Below, piece by piece: positions 3,149 through 28,835 of a stretch of 30,255 nucleotides of DNA. The position numbers and the translations under genes were made by a program. Position 1 is the first letter of the stretch. Every line of letters starts with the position of its first letter. The notes below the pieces were generated by a model, which was not told where the DNA came from, made no database searches, and saw nothing but the letters and a program-made list of their open reading frames with translations. Source of the DNA: a virus; the IMG/VR virus record IMGVR_UViG_3300017917_004106, positions 1 to 30,255 of that record; one strand, 5' to 3'.

Positions 3149-3481
3149 ATGGCCTTCTTCGATTCAGAAATAGTTCAGAAAGAACTAAAGAGTATTGAGA
3201 AACTTCAAAGGGAACTTACAAGGAGCGTCTTGAGGTTTCCTATTATGTCCAAGGCAGAAAAACTTGAGCATGTGAATTTGCTATCTGAATTATTAGAGAA
3301 ACAAAAAATCCTGTATACAAGATTGAGTTTGTCTGATGACCCCCAAGCAATTGAAAAGAAGAATGAAATTATTGCAGCATCAAAAATGATTGGTTATGGG
3401 GACCCATCAAACATGAATGTGGTGTTTGATAACATGCAAAGAGTAATCCAGAGACTCAAGCGTGAAGCAGAGGTTGACTAA
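3149..3481 (+). CDS. DUF1825-like protein, as found in cyanobacteria
   Basis: A 110-aa protein beginning MAFFDSEIVQKE, which I recognise as the hallmark N-terminus of the cyanobacterial DUF1825 family. The rest is predicted helical and coiled: IEKLQRELTRSV, KAEKLEHVNLLSELLEKQ, then MIGYGDPSNMNVVFDNMQRV, which resembles the family's C-terminal GMTPQQMFDQM-type helix. The function is unknown in both hosts and phages. It sits between gp59 and gp32 in the replication block, and its stop lies inside the terminator hairpin that ends this transcription unit. The shared N-terminus suggests exchange between phage and cyanobacterial host. What it does cannot be read from the sequence; a helical adaptor binding a host protein is only a guess. 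Confidence 0.8.
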   Translation: MAFFDSEIVQKELKSIEKLQRELTRSVLRFPIMSKAEKLEHVNLLSELLEKQKILYTRLSLSDDPQAIEKKNEIIAASKMIGYGDPSNMNVVFDNMQRVIQRLKREAEVD

Positions 3482-17717: not shown

Positions 17718-19057
17718 TGGAATCATTTTTTAATTATAAAATAGAACAATTTGTAGTTGAATCACATGATGGGAAATCTTCTACTGACTTAACGCAATGT
17801 ATAGCAAGTGTAAAATATTATGAAGATTTATTTTCCCCAGCAACTTTTATATCATTAGTTTTGGTTAATACTAATGGTTTATTATCATCACTTACTAATT
17901 CAGATTCAAACAAACAATCTGGAATCAAAGGTGGAGAAAGGGTTAGATTAAAGATTAATCAACCTGCTTTTCCAAAAAATGGAATTGATATAGATGAAAC
18001 TAAAAATACATATTACATTTATAAAACTTCATTGTCCACAACAGAGTATACAAGAGAAGCAGTTGTAGTGGATTTGTGTCCTGCAGAAGTTTTTATTAAT
18101 GAAACCTCAAGAGTTTTTAAAAAGTGTTCTGGACATATTGGATCTACAGTCAATCAAATTTTAAAAGAATCTTTTGGAGAAAGCACTTATAAAAAAGAAA
18201 ACATAGAGGAAACCTCAAACAAATATACCTTTTATGGTAATAATAAACGACCATTTACTGTTGTAACTTGGTTGTGTCCAAAGTCAATTCCAGGTGGAAA
18301 GGGTAAACCAACATCATCAAGTCCAAACAAAGGAACTGCAGGATTTTTATTCTATCAAAATAGAAATGGATTTAATTTCAAAAGTATGGACTCTTTGATG
18401 AGTGGATTAAAATTAGGCACAGCAAATAAAAGAAATATTCAAACTTATTATTATGGAACTCCACCCAATCCTGCAAGTGATATTCAAAATAGATTGATTG
18501 TTGATACTCCTACATTTGAAAAGAATGTAAATGTAATGGAGAACTTGAGAATTGGTATGTATTCAAGTGTAAATTATTTCTTTGATGTGAATGCCAGAAA
18601 ATTTTATGCTGATAAGTATAGTCTGAAAGAAAGTTATGAGTTAATGAGTCACGCATCAAGAGGAAACTTTCCGCCTACAATTCCATTAGGATTAGAAAAA
18701 AATCCTTCCAGAGTTATGGTTAGAATTCTTGATAATTTTAATTCTGACCCTGCTGGAGATGCTATTGCAGCAATAAATAACAAAGATAATACTAATCTGT
18801 ATCAAGCAGCATCCATCGCCAGATATAATCTTGCATTTTCTCAGTCTTTGAACATTACTATTCCATTGAACTTAAGTTTGACTGTTGGTGATATTATTAA
18901 TTTACAATTTCCAAAGATTACTACAGGAACAAGAGGTGAAAAGGATAATATAAAATCAGGACACTATTTAATTAAAGAAGTTGCACATTTATTTGAAAAT
19001 AATCAAGGTTATACTGGGCTTAAATTAATTAGAGATTCTTATGGAGATCCAGAATAA
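17717..19057 (+). CDS. 27: gp27 baseplate central hub protein
   Basis: A 446-aa homologue of T4 gp27 (391 aa), the trimeric torus at the centre of the baseplate that carries the gp5 spike. It opens NYKIEQFVVESHDGKSSTDL and VKYYEDLFSPATFISLVLV, matching the family's N-terminal tube-like domain with its YEDLFSP-type sequence. YKTSLSTTEYTREAVVVDLC, VNQILKESFGE and YTFYGNNKRPFTVVTWLCPK follow, then GFLFYQNRNGFNFKSMDSL, which is very typical of gp27 (F.F.E...GF.F.S...L). The C-terminus INLQFPKI and SGHYLIKEVAHLFEN is the usual second tube-like half. It overlaps its neighbours by single bases (TAATG both sides), next to the CP12-like gene and gp5. The identification is strong. Confidence 0.92.
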   Translation: MESFFNYKIEQFVVESHDGKSSTDLTQCIASVKYYEDLFSPATFISLVLVNTNGLLSSLTNSDSNKQSGIKGGERVRLKINQPAFPKNGIDIDETKNTYYIYKTSLSTTEYTREAVVVDLCPAEVFINETSRVFKKCSGHIGSTVNQILKESFGESTYKKENIEETSNKYTFYGNNKRPFTVVTWLCPKSIPGGKGKPTSSSPNKGTAGFLFYQNRNGFNFKSMDSLMSGLKLGTANKRNIQTYYYGTPPNPASDIQNRLIVDTPTFEKNVNVMENLRIGMYSSVNYFFDVNARKFYADKYSLKESYELMSHASRGNFPPTIPLGLEKNPSRVMVRILDNFNSDPAGDAIAAINNKDNTNLYQAASIARYNLAFSQSLNITIPLNLSLTVGDIINLQFPKITTGTRGEKDNIKSGHYLIKEVAHLFENNQGYTGLKLIRDSYGDPE

Positions 19058-19269
19058 TGGATAACATTCACGACCACATTAAAAGAGACAGAGATGAACT
19101 TGAAAACCCAATAATTTCATCTCAAAGACGTAGACATGTTGAAGATGAACTGGAGTCATTAGAAAAGTATCATGCCAATCATCCAGATGATGAACATGAT
19201 CCAACAGCTTTTGAACTATATTGTGATTCAAACCCAGATGCTTTGGAATGTAAGGTATACGACGTATGA
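19057..19269 (+). CDS. CP12-like small protein
   Basis: A 70-aa protein. Residues 47-70, HDPTAFELYCDSNPDALECK then VYDV, match the C-terminal GAPDH-binding motif of CP12 (YC..NP...EC.VYD) with the paired cysteines C56 and C65 eight residues apart. The N-terminal half is helical and charged (HIKRDRDELENPI, RRRHVEDELESLEKYH), as in marine cyanobacterial CP12-type proteins. The N-terminal cysteine pair of plant CP12 is absent. In hosts CP12 docks GAPDH and PRK to shut the Calvin cycle, and CP12 genes are known auxiliary metabolic genes of cyanophages. Here it is translationally coupled between gp27 (TAATG) and gp5 (ATGATG) in a late baseplate operon, which is odd for a metabolic regulator. The motif match is strong; activity is unproven. 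Confidence 0.8.
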   Translation: MDNIHDHIKRDRDELENPIISSQRRRHVEDELESLEKYHANHPDDEHDPTAFELYCDSNPDALECKVYDV

Positions 19270-22599: not shown

Positions 22600-22770
22600 A
22601 TGCAAATTGATCGTGACCAACTGGAAGAACTGAAAGGTCTTCAAGAAGATACTGCTGCTCACTTTACTGACACCAATTTAGTTAGTGGGGAAACTTATTG
22701 GACCTGTGTAGAAGCATTTGCTCAAGCAAAACTTGCAGAACTTCGTGGTGAGTTGGTTTATGAGGGTTGA
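22600..22770 (+). CDS. Small ORF, 56 aa, unknown function
   Basis: ATG 22600 opens a 56-codon frame: MQIDRDQLEELKGLQEDTAA, HFTDTNLVSGETYWTCVEAF, AQAKLAELRGELVYEG. It looks like a real protein: two amphipathic helical segments flank a loop, with one Trp and one Cys, and no long low-complexity stretch. There is no clear Shine-Dalgarno, since the 5' end of the expected transcript is only about 22 nt away. It is the only coding gene of the cassette driven by the 22543 promoter, followed by the structured segment and tRNA-Leu. Short acidic proteins of this kind are common in T4-like cyanophages. I recognise no family, and it could be spurious, though the promoter spacing supports it. Confidence 0.55.
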   Translation: MQIDRDQLEELKGLQEDTAAHFTDTNLVSGETYWTCVEAFAQAKLAELRGELVYEG

Positions 22771-22773
22771 CTG

Positions 22774-22871
22774 GGACTGAGGTTTGAGGTAGACTAACCA
22801 AGTCCGTGTGAAGGAGTGCTGGAGGTTTCGTGCCTGTGAAGAGGAAACTCTGAGGCTGTGTAAATCCTCCA
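22774..22871 (+). ncRNA. Candidate structured RNA upstream of tRNA-Leu
   Basis: This gene-free stretch between the 56-aa ORF and the tRNA is about half G+C, well above the AT-rich neighbours, and folds by eye into strong stems. Hairpin 1: GGACT (22774-22778) with AGTCC (22801-22805), enclosing GGTT (22781-22784) with AACC (22796-22799). Hairpin 2: TGGAGG (22820-22825) with CCTCCA (22866-22871), enclosing GCCT (22832-22835) with AGGC (22853-22856), capped by AGAG-GAAA-CTCT (22840-22851), a GNRA tetraloop. CCAAGT (22798-22803) can alternatively pair with ACTTGG (22871-22876), which includes the first bases of the tRNA, so a switch is possible. I match it to no known RNA family. It might be a tRNA leader, a regulatory RNA or a decayed tRNA gene. 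Confidence 0.5.
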
Positions 22872-22874
22872 CTT

Positions 22875-22947
22875 GGCGGTGTAGCCCAGCGGAAGAGGCA
22901 AACGACTTAAAATCGTTCAAGGGTGAGTTCGAATCTCACCACCGCTA
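22875..22947 (+). tRNA. tRNA-Leu (anticodon UAA), short variable arm
   Basis: Full cloverleaf. Acceptor GGCGGTG (22875-22881) with CACCGCT (22940-22946), with G-T at the end pair. D stem GCC/GGC. Anticodon stem AACGA/TCGTT with loop CTTAAAA, giving anticodon UAA (22908-22910). T arm GTGAG-TTCGAAT-CTCAC. A73 follows as discriminator, which fits leucine. CCA is not encoded. The variable loop is only CAAGG (five bases), whereas bacterial tRNA-Leu normally has a long extra arm. It would read UUA, a frequent codon in this AT-rich genome. Confidence 0.92.
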
Positions 22948-23831: not shown

Positions 23832-26800
23832 ATGCCTTTAGCGAGATTAGAAAATTTTCTTAAAAATTTAAGCGGTAATACATTATATGTAGATCCTAAT
23901 GATTTAGATTCCACTGATTCTATTGAAAATAGAGGAAATTCTAAATTACGTCCTTTTAAAACAATTCAAAGAGCTCTTTTAGAGGCAGCAAGATTTTCAT
24001 ATGTAGCTGGAACTAATAACGATATATTTGATCAGACTACTATTTTAATTTCTCCGGGCACGCATTACATTGATAATAGACCTGGGTATTATGTTACATC
24101 ATCCAATGTAATTAAGGATGCTGGAAATTTTACTAAAACTATTTCAGAGTTTAATATTCTTAGTAATTTTGATATCACAGATTCAGATAATCAACTTTAC
24201 ATTTATAATAGTGTTGATGGTGGTGTTATATTACCAAAAGGAACATCTCTGGTTGCATCTGATTTAAGAAAGACTAAAATTAGACCATTATATGTTCCAG
24301 ATCCAGAAGATTCAAACACTGGAGATACAGCAATTTTTAGGTTGACTGGATCTTGTTATTTCTTTGGTTTTACCATTTATGATGGTGATCCATCTGGGAA
24401 AGTTTATAACACCTATGGTCCAAATACAGTTTCTCCTTTTTATTCTCACCACAAATTAACAGCATTTGAATATGCTGATGGAATTAATGAAGTAGTTAAA
24501 AATAACTCTAACACAGGTCGTACAGATTTAGAAACATATTATTATAAAGTTGCCTTAGCTTATGGGCAACAATCTTCCAGAAATATAATTGATGGGGATT
24601 ATAATTTCCAACCAAATATTGATGAGTATAGAATTGTAGGTGAACTTGGCGTAGGTTCAGTAGGTATTTCTTCAATTCGTAGTGGCGATGGGATATCTGC
24701 CACAAGTGTTATTACTGTAGATACAGAAACTGAACATAAATTATCTCCATTTACTCCAATATTGATATCTGGAGTTGGTAATGCAGAAGGATCTCCAACC
24801 ACAGATGAATATAATGGAAATTTTGTGGTTGCACAGGTTTTAACTGAAAAACGATTTACATATGTTTTACCACAAATTCCAACAGGGTCACTTTTTCCAA
24901 GTTTTGATGGATCTTCAATAAAAGTTATTTCTGATACTACAACTTCTTCATCTCCATATGTTTTCAACTGCAGTTTGAAATCAGTTTATGGTATGAATGG
25001 TCTTCATGCTGATGGATCTAAAGCAACTGGATTTAGATCCATGGTGACTGCACAGTTTACAGGCATTTCACTTCAAAAAGATGATAGAGCATTTGTAAAA
25101 TATGATGAAGATTTAGGAACATATAGAGATCAAACTACTTTTGGAGTTAATCAATTTCTTCATCAAGATATAGATTCAATTTATAAACCAGAATGGTCAA
25201 GTGCTCATATTAAAGCTTCAAATGATGCATTTATTCAATGTGTGTCAATTTTTGCTATTGGATACTCAAATCAATTTACTGCAGATGCTGGCGGTGATCA
25301 AAGTATTACTAATTCTAATAGTAATTTTGGACAAAGATCTTTATTTTCTGAAGGATTTAAAAAAGATGCTTTTCCAAAAGACGATCATGGATTTATAACT
25401 CATATTATTCCTCCCAAAGATATATCTTTAGATTCTCAAAATATTAACACATACCTGACAAATAAAGATTTACCCAACACAAATTCAAGATTATATTTAC
25501 AAGGTTTTAATGACATTTTAACTCCACCAAATTCTAAAGTTAGAGGATATTCAATTGGTGGAAAATATGATGATAAAATTTATTACATCTATAATGGCGT
25601 TGAATACTATGCTAACATAATTCCAAATTATCAAGTTAATGTTGGAATAACAACAATTGACACATCACTTAACACTCTTACATTATCAAGTGTGTCTGGT
25701 ATCAGCACAGGACTTTCTGTAAAGATTATTTCAAAAAATGCTATTTTGCCAGATGGTATTGAAGCAAATAAAACTTATTTTGCAAAACTTGTTGGTGGAA
25801 ATAATATAAGAGTTTATGAGAACTTAGAAAATTGTAATGGTGATACTGGAAACACTGGTCAGACTGCAGTTAATATTAAAAATATTGTTGGACTTTCTTC
25901 TGACAATTTATTTGTATTGAGTAAAGTTTCTGACAGATCTTCTGGATCTGTAGGAAGTCCTATACAATGGGATAGCACTAACAAAAATTGGTACATAGGG
26001 ATTTCAACTGTTGTAGAATCTCCTAATTTTATTTCAAATATTGCAAACTTAACATCAACACCACAATTATTTTTAAAAAGAATTATTGATACAAGATCTG
26101 ATGTTGATAGATCTTATAGGATTAGATATGTCATTCCAAAAGAATCTCAATCTGCAGCAGTCCCAACATCAGGATTTATTTTCCAAAAATCTTCATACCC
26201 ATTAAATGGAACATATCCAATTGGAGTAACTTCTACATCTTCTTCTGTAGAATTAAGTGCTGGTGCCAACAATACTGATACTTTATCAGCTATTAGAAAT
26301 AAAAATGTTATTGTTGATGCATGGTATTCTAGTGGAACTGCCACAATAATAACTAAAAATCCACACTATTTAAAAGCAGGTAATAAAATTAGAATCTTCA
26401 ATTTGAAGAGTGCTAATGAACCAAATCCAATTGGAATTGGAACTGGAACAGGATACAATGGTATCTTCGTTGTTGCATCTGTTCCAAATGATCTTACATT
26501 TACCTATTCAATTTCAGTAGATCCTGGTAGTATCACAGCTGGTGTTTCTACCATCACAAGTTGGTTAAATGAAAGGAATTGTACCCAAGTATCAAGGGTT
26601 CCACCATACACAATTTATCAAGACAATAGGCAAAATCTTCCATATTTTGTTTGTAATCAAATTGAAAATCACTATCAAGCATACAAAATTAAACAAATTC
26701 AAAAATATTCAGAAGGATCTACTGATGGTGTTTATCACATTACACTTGATGCATATAAAAATACTCCTACCATATCTCCATACAATATAAGTGAATATAA

Positions 26801-28835
26801 ATTTGGACAAAGTTTAGATAATCTTTATCCAAAAATAGATTTTGATAATTATAATGTTGACCCAGATCCAACTGTCACTGTTGCTTCGAGGCAAGTTATA
26901 GGTTCTGTAGATATTAATGATCCTGATTTAAGTTCAACCAAAGAAACTATAGTTGAACTTTTCAAAGATTTTGATCTTGGTAAGAAAATAACAGGGTTTG
27001 TAAAATCTGGAAATGACATTATTGTTACAACAAGTCAAAATCATGGTCTTGCTGGAATCAAAAGACTTGTTTCATTATCTTTAGGATCTGGATATACTAA
27101 TGGTACATTTTATGATATTCCTCTTTGTGGAGGATCTGGACAAAATGCCACTGTAAATGTTAAAGTTTCTGGTGGCGTTCCTACATTTTTTGAAGTTGCT
27201 AATTCTGGATCAGGATATCTTGTAGGTGAAACTTTATCTATTAAAGGAATTCCTGGATCAACAACAGTTACTACTGTTTCCATTCCTTCTAATGGGTTAA
27301 ATTTTGATGCTAATGAATCAGATTTAATTCAAATTTTAGGAGCAACGAATTCTTCAAATAATGGACAATTTGTAATTTCGTCTGTTACAGCAAATACTAT
27401 AACATATTCTAATTCTGCTGGTGTAACAGAATCTCCAACCAATGCAGTTTTAATTTTTTCTGGTCCAGGATATCCAGTATCTTCAGTTTCCTATGATGCT
27501 ACAACTGGTATCAGCACTATTACGACAGGTGCTCTTGACCCTCATGATTTTGTTTTGGGGAATAAAGTTTTATTTGATGTTAATAATTTAGGTATTTGTA
27601 CCGTAACAAGTAACACAGGAAACACTACATTTACTGTTGGTGGAGATGCAAGCACTGCAACCAGAGTTTATTCTATTGGATTAATCCCAACATTAAAAGA
27701 TACTGATTCTTTAAATGAAAATCTCAATACTAGAGATTATGTTGCTTATTCTGGATTTAAGAGTAGATTATCAACTCCCATGACAGTCTTCTCTACATCT
27801 GTAAATGTTAATACCACCAATGGATTGAAAAAAGGTGATTTCATTCAAGTAGAAAATGAAATAATGCTGGTGACTAAAGTTGATGTTGGAAATTCTATTT
27901 CAGTAAAAAGGTCTTTGTTCTCAACTCAAGCAAGAGAGCATTCAATTAACTCTTCAGTAAAGGGCATTAATATTGTTCCAGTAGAACTTAGAAGACCTTC
28001 AATTTTAAGAGCATCTGGACATACATTTGAATATACTGGTTTTGGTCCAGGAAATTATTCCACTGCAATGCCAAGTAATCAAACTAAAGTATTGAGTGAT
28101 AAGCAAGTATTAAATTCACAATCTCTTGCTAATAGAGGTGGATATGTTGTTTATAGTGGAATGAATAGTAATGGAGAATTCTTCATAGGTAAGAAAAAGT
28201 TTGATGCCTCAAGTGGACAAGAAATAGTTACTACAGGAGAAGGAGATGTAGCGATAGTTTCTGATTTTGATTCTTTAACACTCAATAAGTTGACTGTCAA
28301 TAAAGAAATTGATGCATCAACTGCTTCAGTTAAGGTAAATGATCTCAAAGTTCTTGGAATAACCACATTTACCAATTCTACAGATTCTACTTCTTGCACA
28401 ACTGGATCTATTCAAATTGCTGGTGGAGTTGGAATTGGGAAAACTGTTAATATTTGTGGAGATCTGAATGTAGCTCAACATGCTACAGTAGGTAGTGGAT
28501 TGACAGTTACTGGTGTCTTAAGAGTTACAGATGATATTGTAGCATTCTGGGCATCTGATCAAAGATTGAAAGATAATATTACTAAAATTGATGATCCATT
28601 AGCAAAAGTTATCTCAATTAGTGGAAATACTTTTGATTGGAATGAAAAGTCTGATAAGTCTGGGCATGATGTTGGGGTTATTGCACAAGAAGTTCTTGAA
28701 GTTCTTCCAGAAGCAGTTACAACAAGGAGTGATGGATACTTAGCAGTAGATTATCACAAAATTATACCACTTTTAATTGAAGCAATTAAAGATCTAAAAA
28801 CTGAAATTGATGAATTGAAAAAGGATAAAAAATAA
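23832..28835 (+). CDS. Giant tail fiber/baseplate-attached structural protein with S74 chaperone
   Basis: A 1667-aa protein, the largest in the window. The N-terminus MPLARLENFLKNLSGNTLYV, then LRPFKTIQRALLEAARFSYV, is the cyanophage form of a beta-helix (pectate-lyase-like) entry. A long beta-rich body of Ser/Asn/Thr/Gly repeats follows, with pieces such as GDGISATSVITVDTETEH and NSGSGYLVGETLSIKG. Near the C-terminus is a repeat-type shaft (ITTFTNSTDSTSCTTGSIQI, GGVGIGKTVNICGDLNV). The last 93 residues from Ser1575 (SDQRLKDNITKIDDPLAKV, FDWNEKS, DVGVIAQEVLEVLPEAV, VDYHKIIPLLIEAIKDLKTE) are an S74 chaperone that would trimerise the fiber and release itself. It is likely a receptor-binding or wedge-attached fiber. 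The gene ends head-to-head with the adhesin-like gene on the other strand, with no terminator seen. It is similar in style to proteins often annotated as structural or gp10-like in relatives. Confidence 0.88.
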   Translation: MPLARLENFLKNLSGNTLYVDPNDLDSTDSIENRGNSKLRPFKTIQRALLEAARFSYVAGTNNDIFDQTTILISPGTHYIDNRPGYYVTSSNVIKDAGNFTKTISEFNILSNFDITDSDNQLYIYNSVDGGVILPKGTSLVASDLRKTKIRPLYVPDPEDSNTGDTAIFRLTGSCYFFGFTIYDGDPSGKVYNTYGPNTVSPFYSHHKLTAFEYADGINEVVKNNSNTGRTDLETYYYKVALAYGQQSSRNIIDGDYNFQPNIDEYRIVGELGVGSVGISSIRSGDGISATSVITVDTETEHKLSPFTPILISGVGNAEGSPTTDEYNGNFVVAQVLTEKRFTYVLPQIPTGSLFPSFDGSSIKVISDTTTSSSPYVFNCSLKSVYGMNGLHADGSKATGFRSMVTAQFTGISLQKDDRAFVKYDEDLGTYRDQTTFGVNQFLHQDIDSIYKPEWSSAHIKASNDAFIQCVSIFAIGYSNQFTADAGGDQSITNSNSNFGQRSLFSEGFKKDAFPKDDHGFITHIIPPKDISLDSQNINTYLTNKDLPNTNSRLYLQGFNDILTPPNSKVRGYSIGGKYDDKIYYIYNGVEYYANIIPNYQVNVGITTIDTSLNTLTLSSVSGISTGLSVKIISKNAILPDGIEANKTYFAKLVGGNNIRVYENLENCNGDTGNTGQTAVNIKNIVGLSSDNLFVLSKVSDRSSGSVGSPIQWDSTNKNWYIGISTVVESPNFISNIANLTSTPQLFLKRIIDTRSDVDRSYRIRYVIPKESQSAAVPTSGFIFQKSSYPLNGTYPIGVTSTSSSVELSAGANNTDTLSAIRNKNVIVDAWYSSGTATIITKNPHYLKAGNKIRIFNLKSANEPNPIGIGTGTGYNGIFVVASVPNDLTFTYSISVDPGSITAGVSTITSWLNERNCTQVSRVPPYTIYQDNRQNLPYFVCNQIENHYQAYKIKQIQKYSEGSTDGVYHITLDAYKNTPTISPYNISEYKFGQSLDNLYPKIDFDNYNVDPDPTVTVASRQVIGSVDINDPDLSSTKETIVELFKDFDLGKKITGFVKSGNDIIVTTSQNHGLAGIKRLVSLSLGSGYTNGTFYDIPLCGGSGQNATVNVKVSGGVPTFFEVANSGSGYLVGETLSIKGIPGSTTVTTVSIPSNGLNFDANESDLIQILGATNSSNNGQFVISSVTANTITYSNSAGVTESPTNAVLIFSGPGYPVSSVSYDATTGISTITTGALDPHDFVLGNKVLFDVNNLGICTVTSNTGNTTFTVGGDASTATRVYSIGLIPTLKDTDSLNENLNTRDYVAYSGFKSRLSTPMTVFSTSVNVNTTNGLKKGDFIQVENEIMLVTKVDVGNSISVKRSLFSTQAREHSINSSVKGINIVPVELRRPSILRASGHTFEYTGFGPGNYSTAMPSNQTKVLSDKQVLNSQSLANRGGYVVYSGMNSNGEFFIGKKKFDASSGQEIVTTGEGDVAIVSDFDSLTLNKLTVNKEIDASTASVKVNDLKVLGITTFTNSTDSTSCTTGSIQIAGGVGIGKTVNICGDLNVAQHATVGSGLTVTGVLRVTDDIVAFWASDQRLKDNITKIDDPLAKVISISGNTFDWNEKSDKSGHDVGVIAQEVLEVLPEAVTTRSDGYLAVDYHKIIPLLIEAIKDLKTEIDELKKDKK

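Follow-up and report, generated by a model that had tools for sequence, protein, structure and literature searches.

A conserved structured RNA with a predicted kink-turn beside tRNA genes in probable cyanophages

The locus and its genes

The stretch of DNA analysed here (the window) is a virus fragment of 30,255 bases, and its T4-like tail and baseplate genes, PhoH-like gene and CP12 gene make it very probable that it comes from a phage of cyanobacteria. The nearest annotated relatives of its tail protein are found in Synechococcus and Prochlorococcus phages (about 30% identity). The CP12 gene (70 aa, 19057–19269; Pfam PF02672, E 3.3e-14) is flanked by a gene for a tail protein and the one for the baseplate hub, and the same gene order is found in phages DSL-LC03 and DSL-LC02. 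A protein of 1667 aa with a C-terminal Peptidase_S74 chaperone domain (23832–28835) is probably a tail fibre.

The element described below lies between a small ORF (P0001) and a tRNA-Leu(UAA) gene. P0001 is conserved in relatives, with homologues in 136 stretches, and distant homologues are found in cultured cyanophages. Similar class I-type tRNA-Leu(UAA) genes are present in phages S-SRM01 and P-RSM6 and in the Pseudomonas phages ZC03 and ZC08. The record of S-SRM01 also contains tRNA-Met-like and tRNA-Leu-like sequences without annotation (L204, about 880–1070). The features of the locus, all on the + strand, are as follows.

22600–22770, +: small upstream ORF P0001, 56 aa (context only); its stop codon overlaps the −35 box
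22767–22795, +: sigma-70-like promoter, TTGACT-17-TAGACT; the 5' hairpin of the original prediction lies on top of it
22801–22819, +: short leader GUCCGUGUGAAGGAGUGC, shared by relatives whether or not they have the element; start site placed from the −10 box
22820–22871, +: conserved RNA element, 52 nt; 73 distinct loci, covariance model, core z −2.48
22820–22825, +: P1, 5' strand (partner 22866–22871); changes in helix 1
22826–22828, +: loop side 1, Y (U-A or C-G with 22864), W, Y22828
22829–22834, +: P2, 5' strand, CG-U(bulge)-GCC; near invariant, one G-U variant (L172)
22835–22839, +: predicted kink-turn, bulged strand, L1–L3 UGU followed by G.A and A.G; G and A in 39/39 rows
22840–22851, +: P3 and GAAA loop (AGAG-GAAA-CUCU); both-side changes in 2/4 pairs
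22852–22853, +: predicted kink-turn, opposite strand GA; 39/39
22854–22858, +: P2, 3' strand, GGC-UG; near invariant
22857–22865, +: loop side 2, UG-K-GUAA-R-U
22866–22871, +: P1, 3' strand (pairs with 22820–22825)
22875–22947, +: tRNA-Leu(UAA) with short variable loop (class I), starting 3 nt past P1

A single promoter match such as TTGACT-17-TAGACT is within shuffle expectation; in relatives a promoter is found at the equivalent place, in some of them with TTGACA and TATAAT. The leader (22801–22819, GUGUGAAGGAAGUGC) is common to Gly and Leu transcripts bearing different hairpins. Two independent hairpins had originally been proposed for this segment. The 5' one (about 22774–22805) coincides with the promoter, and its pairing is gone in a relative (L009), although that relative keeps the 52-nt element; it is rejected as a structured RNA and regarded as promoter DNA without conservation. 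A conformational switch (CCAAGT/ACTTGG) reaching into the 5' end of the tRNA had also been suggested, and this too is rejected: only the closest relatives show this pairing, and its 5' arm sits no further downstream than the start site placed from the −10 box.

Conservation and structure of the element

Based on folding energy the whole segment is unremarkable (z −0.40), as is the leader plus tRNA (z −0.46), while the 52-nt core lies below expectation (z −2.48; 4/200 shuffles as good). It is the comparison of homologues, and not folding energy, that is decisive. A first scan with a 19-base apical stretch, which left the loop unfixed, matched 35 viral contigs, nearly all of which contain the entire element before a tRNA; one match (L021) is a chance match in unrelated sequence. 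Flexible patterns extended the collection to 73 distinct loci, and 39 distinct sequences were aligned. In a relaxed scan (kink-turn and tRNA T-arm, loop not required), the only real matches among those listed are full elements with the complete loop; listed rows that fall outside the family match by chance. Four hits of the patterns in genome collections have unrelated flanks and lack the element.

Among the 39 distinct homologues, standard pairs occupy 94.5% of cells vs 86.1% in shuffles and 69 cells are doubly changed vs 24.7 in shuffles, though kinship alone can lift pairing above shuffles without structure, and the strongest points are qualitative exchanges. For P1 these are UGGAGG/CCUCCA, GUGGGG/CCCCAC, AAGGGG/CCCCUU and UGAAGG/CCUUCA; for P3, AGAG/CUCU, AGGA/UCCU, AGG/CCU and AGA/UCU. 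The pair adjoining P1 exchanges U-A for C-G, and in helix 1 (P1 with this extra pair, 22826–22864) 5/7 pairs show changes on both sides. The pairing score also drops steeply when the pairing partner is slid. Compensatory changes, which were to be sought in relatives, thus support P1 and P3; P2 is nearly invariant, so covariation gives no test of it. Among variant pairs G-U outnumbers A-C (13 to 4), which indicates an RNA of the + strand. Concerning coding capacity, the length of P3 shifts by 2 nt in otherwise near-identical copies, which rules out a coding reading, and candidate start codons are unconserved. A decayed tRNA is likewise rejected, as no tRNA model matches the element. On these comparative grounds the element is established as a real, conserved and noncoding member of an RNA family, with the + strand as its strand and with P1 and P3 paired.

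Two of the stems originally proposed, TGGAGG/CCTCCA (P1) and AGAG/CTCT with its GAAA loop (P3), are found within 22820–22871, just 5' of tRNA-Leu(UAA). A third, GCCT/AGGC, is retained in part: GCC/GGC is P2, and the fourth pair (U-A) more likely belongs to the kink-turn. The GNRA loop said to cap AGAG/CTCT is the usual one but is replaceable, since UUCG, AAAA and UCAUAA occur in its place. P3 varies between 3 and 4 bp among homologues and, with these loops and this variation in length, GNRA docking is rejected as a requirement. The asymmetric loop beside P1 has U or A opposite GUAA, and a U is bulged out of the 3' strand at the U-A/C-G pair. GUAA and the U preceding the 3' strand of P1 are invariant in 39/39 rows, an invariance of the core that is partly by construction, because the second to fourth search patterns fixed part of it; the first scan and the relaxed one, which left the loop free, test it independently. 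Y22828 and 22859 change together without exception: C is matched by G in 23 rows and U by U in the other 16, and the two classes may differ in their pairing register around these positions.

The sequence between P2 and P3 has the standard kink-turn signature (a 3-nt bulge, then G.A and A.G between two helices) in 39/39 homologues; GA/GA was fixed in some search patterns but not in the flanks of the first scan. UGU-GA...GA is predicted to be a standard kink-turn. A Watson–Crick 3b.3n pair prevents folding of a kink-turn in ions alone, whereas 3n=G or 3b=C (not both) permits it (PMC4382518). Here the 3b.3n pair is A-U in 34, U.U in 3, A.A in 1 and G.U in 1 of the 39, and 3n=G or 3b=C, the type that folds in metal ions alone, is found in 0/39. 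By that rule a bound partner is suggested. The usual binder of kink-turns is L7Ae. No L7Ae-type protein was found in nine element-bearing phage contigs and the window, and the family cut-off is passed in only 2/146 cyanobacterial genomes; L7Ae is probably missing from the presumed hosts as well as from the phages searched. A kink-turn in phages, and probably in hosts, without the usual protein would point to another binder.

The standard kink-turns of box C/D and U4 RNAs resemble the element in having a C stem, a three-nucleotide bulge, tandem G.A/A.G pairs and a non-canonical stem, as well as the strings GUGA and CUGA. The element differs from them in lacking a guide sequence and a second box pair, and in that an L7Ae-type protein is absent from the phage contigs searched and rare in the sampled cyanobacteria. 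A box C/D guide RNA is rejected, as there is a single GUGA/CUGA pair and no variable guide.

Distribution across contigs and tRNA genes

Uncultured viral contigs resembling viruses of cyanobacteria have close copies at 73 distinct loci (the window itself, L116, is left out of the locus counts). At 71/73 of these loci a tRNA begins no more than 60 nt downstream, and at the other two none is present in the DNA covered. The spacer from P1 to the tRNA is 2–6 nt at 63/71 loci. The tRNA that follows is Gly, Leu or Met, and three settings occur: promoter–element–Gly(UCC), promoter–element–Leu(UAA) and Ile(UAU)–element–Met(CAU), in the last of which the element nearly abuts the upstream tRNA. Searched with the covariance model, 14 contigs (31–205 kb) each gave a single strong copy; the contigs are fragments or of uncertain completeness and their hosts are inferred, so that one copy per contig is a lower bound. 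In five of the 14 there are second matches, none above 15 bits, which we regard as noise. Nine of the 14 contigs contain 5–23 tRNAs each, and many tRNAs in the element-bearing contigs lack such a hairpin.

A 142-kb relative (L049) gives no match, and eight complete cultured cyanophages give no clear match to the covariance model. No blast match was found among 50,697 annotated phage records, a search that could miss a diverged copy. A host origin is rejected on the basis of 0 matches in 292 cyanobacterial genomes, in a search without a positive control. In Rfam 15, nothing reaches the gathering threshold on the segment except the adjacent tRNA, and at relaxed thresholds (E up to 5) there is still no hit over the element on the strand that encodes it. 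The Rfam scan that had been called for thus gives no family at either threshold. No description of the element was found in a literature search of open papers. With its covariation, and being neither coding nor a decayed tRNA, the element bears out the original prediction of a novel structured RNA of no known family; judged from its sequence and relatives, it is a phage structured RNA with a predicted kink-turn that is absent from Rfam.

The element is not tied to one tRNA. In L009, whose tail protein is 61% identical to that of the window, the element is 98% identical, while the tRNA-Leu, 85 nt long and of class II rather than class I, is 50% identical. L003 likewise has an element 98% identical to that of the window, but before a Met tRNA. 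By these comparisons the element outlives replacement of the tRNA. Three relatives with the same Leu locus (L042, L047, L048) have plain hairpins at the position of the element, and three loci, L050 and L075 before Leu and L176 before Gly, combine P1 and the GUAAG loop with a different apical stem. In these three (L050, about 3170–3280; L075, about 3160–3260; the Gly leader of L176) the arrangement is P1 and a GGC..GUAAG loop with an unrelated apical stem. The Gly leader of L187 has a long hairpin, GGGGTTAGTAC...GTACTAACCCC, directly 5' of tRNA-Gly, and the element is found elsewhere in L187.

Possible roles of the element

The reading that we prefer, at a probability of about 0.42, is that the element is an independent small RNA, or an RNA–protein scaffold, which uses tRNA transcription and processing to obtain its ends. 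It would be transcribed from the + strand as a P1–loop–P2–kink-turn–P3 hairpin, and its location directly 5' of a tRNA would let transcription of the tRNA supply the element RNA. RNase P would cut its 3' side during processing of the tRNA end, and its 5' end would be either the transcription start or the product of 3' maturation of an upstream tRNA. The internal loop, the bulged U and the kink-turn could form the face that a protein or some other partner contacts inside the infected cell; here we infer the kink-turn, transcription, excision, action in trans and the existence of the partner. This reading is supported by the single strong copy in contigs with several tRNAs, and the persistence of the element across a change of tRNA (L009, L003) speaks for an RNA that has a function of its own. 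Counting against it are the plain hairpins of L042, L047 and L048, which a cis role explains more simply, and the lack of L7Ae in ten phage records and its rarity in cyanobacteria (2/146), whereby the obvious kink-turn binder is missing.

A close rival, which we consider a real possibility, is a cis-acting role in maturation of the tRNA leader: the structure would insulate the tRNA from the leader, protect its 5' end, or present the precursor to RNase P or another nuclease, and the kink-turn would be one of several solutions. Wherever a tRNA is seen, the element stands just before it with a short spacer, and this role is favoured by the plain hairpins that occupy the same position at the homologous Leu locus in other phages, together with the altered apical stems over P1 and the GUAAG loop in L050, L075 and L176. 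Against it, the identity of the tRNA varies, the same contigs have many tRNAs without such a hairpin, and the unpaired bases are conserved far beyond the need of a mere barrier. We give the independent RNA a small edge, since a cis role does not easily account for a single copy per genome or for indifference to the identity of the tRNA.

A small ligand-binding or self-cleaving RNA that would control or cut the tRNA precursor (riboswitch-like or ribozyme) is improbable. Kink-turns are known in riboswitches (PMC4316175), but the 3b.3n pairs of the element differ from those of SAM-I kink-turns (PMC4382518). The fold is compact and has strictly conserved unpaired bases, as this explanation would have it; no Rfam ribozyme or riboswitch matches it, however, and neither a second conserved domain nor a pseudoknot was apparent. 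Concerning a downstream expression platform, no terminator was found beside the element, and the product at 71/73 loci is a tRNA.

Least probable by far is a DNA-level signal (a binding or recombination site that is merely palindromic), for although the inverted repeat adjoins tRNA genes, which are common recombination sites, the variants are more often G-U than A-C, the apical loops are replaced while the stems are kept, the conserved loop is asymmetric, and the orientation is fixed relative to promoter and tRNA.

Among known phage RNAs, species 1 and 2 of T4 are stable non-tRNA RNAs that lie among the phage tRNA genes and are processed with them. The element is like them in being a non-tRNA RNA encoded among phage tRNA genes, for which processing is proposed, and differs from them in length; no function of species 1 and 2 was found in the open literature searched. 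The structured RNAs manA, wcaG, PhotoRC-II, the glutamine riboswitch and CfrI also come from T4-like cyanophages (PMC2864571, PMC9602691). No Rfam family matches the element, and manA and wcaG are found in or near the 5' UTRs of protein genes (PMC2864571, PMC9602691), whereas the element is found by a tRNA. RNA anti-CRISPRs are solitary repeat units, likewise small phage non-coding RNAs (PMC10651486), as the candidate here would be in having a single unit; in the element, though, the stem varies freely and the loop is fixed, which is not suggestive of a repeat mimic.

A more specific form of the preferred reading, which we hold to be rather unlikely, is a class of phage small RNAs excised by tRNA processing ('tRNA punctuation'), present in one copy per genome, with a kink-turn and internal loop that would capture a specific host or phage protein. 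If a separate excised RNA with a partner were shown, it would constitute a new class. Few phage non-coding RNAs are known, and the element is conserved, small, testable and outside Rfam. Should it be a cis element, it raises the question of how phages control the maturation of the tRNAs that they bring; if it acts in trans, tRNA genes would serve phages both to carry regulatory RNAs and to signal their processing.
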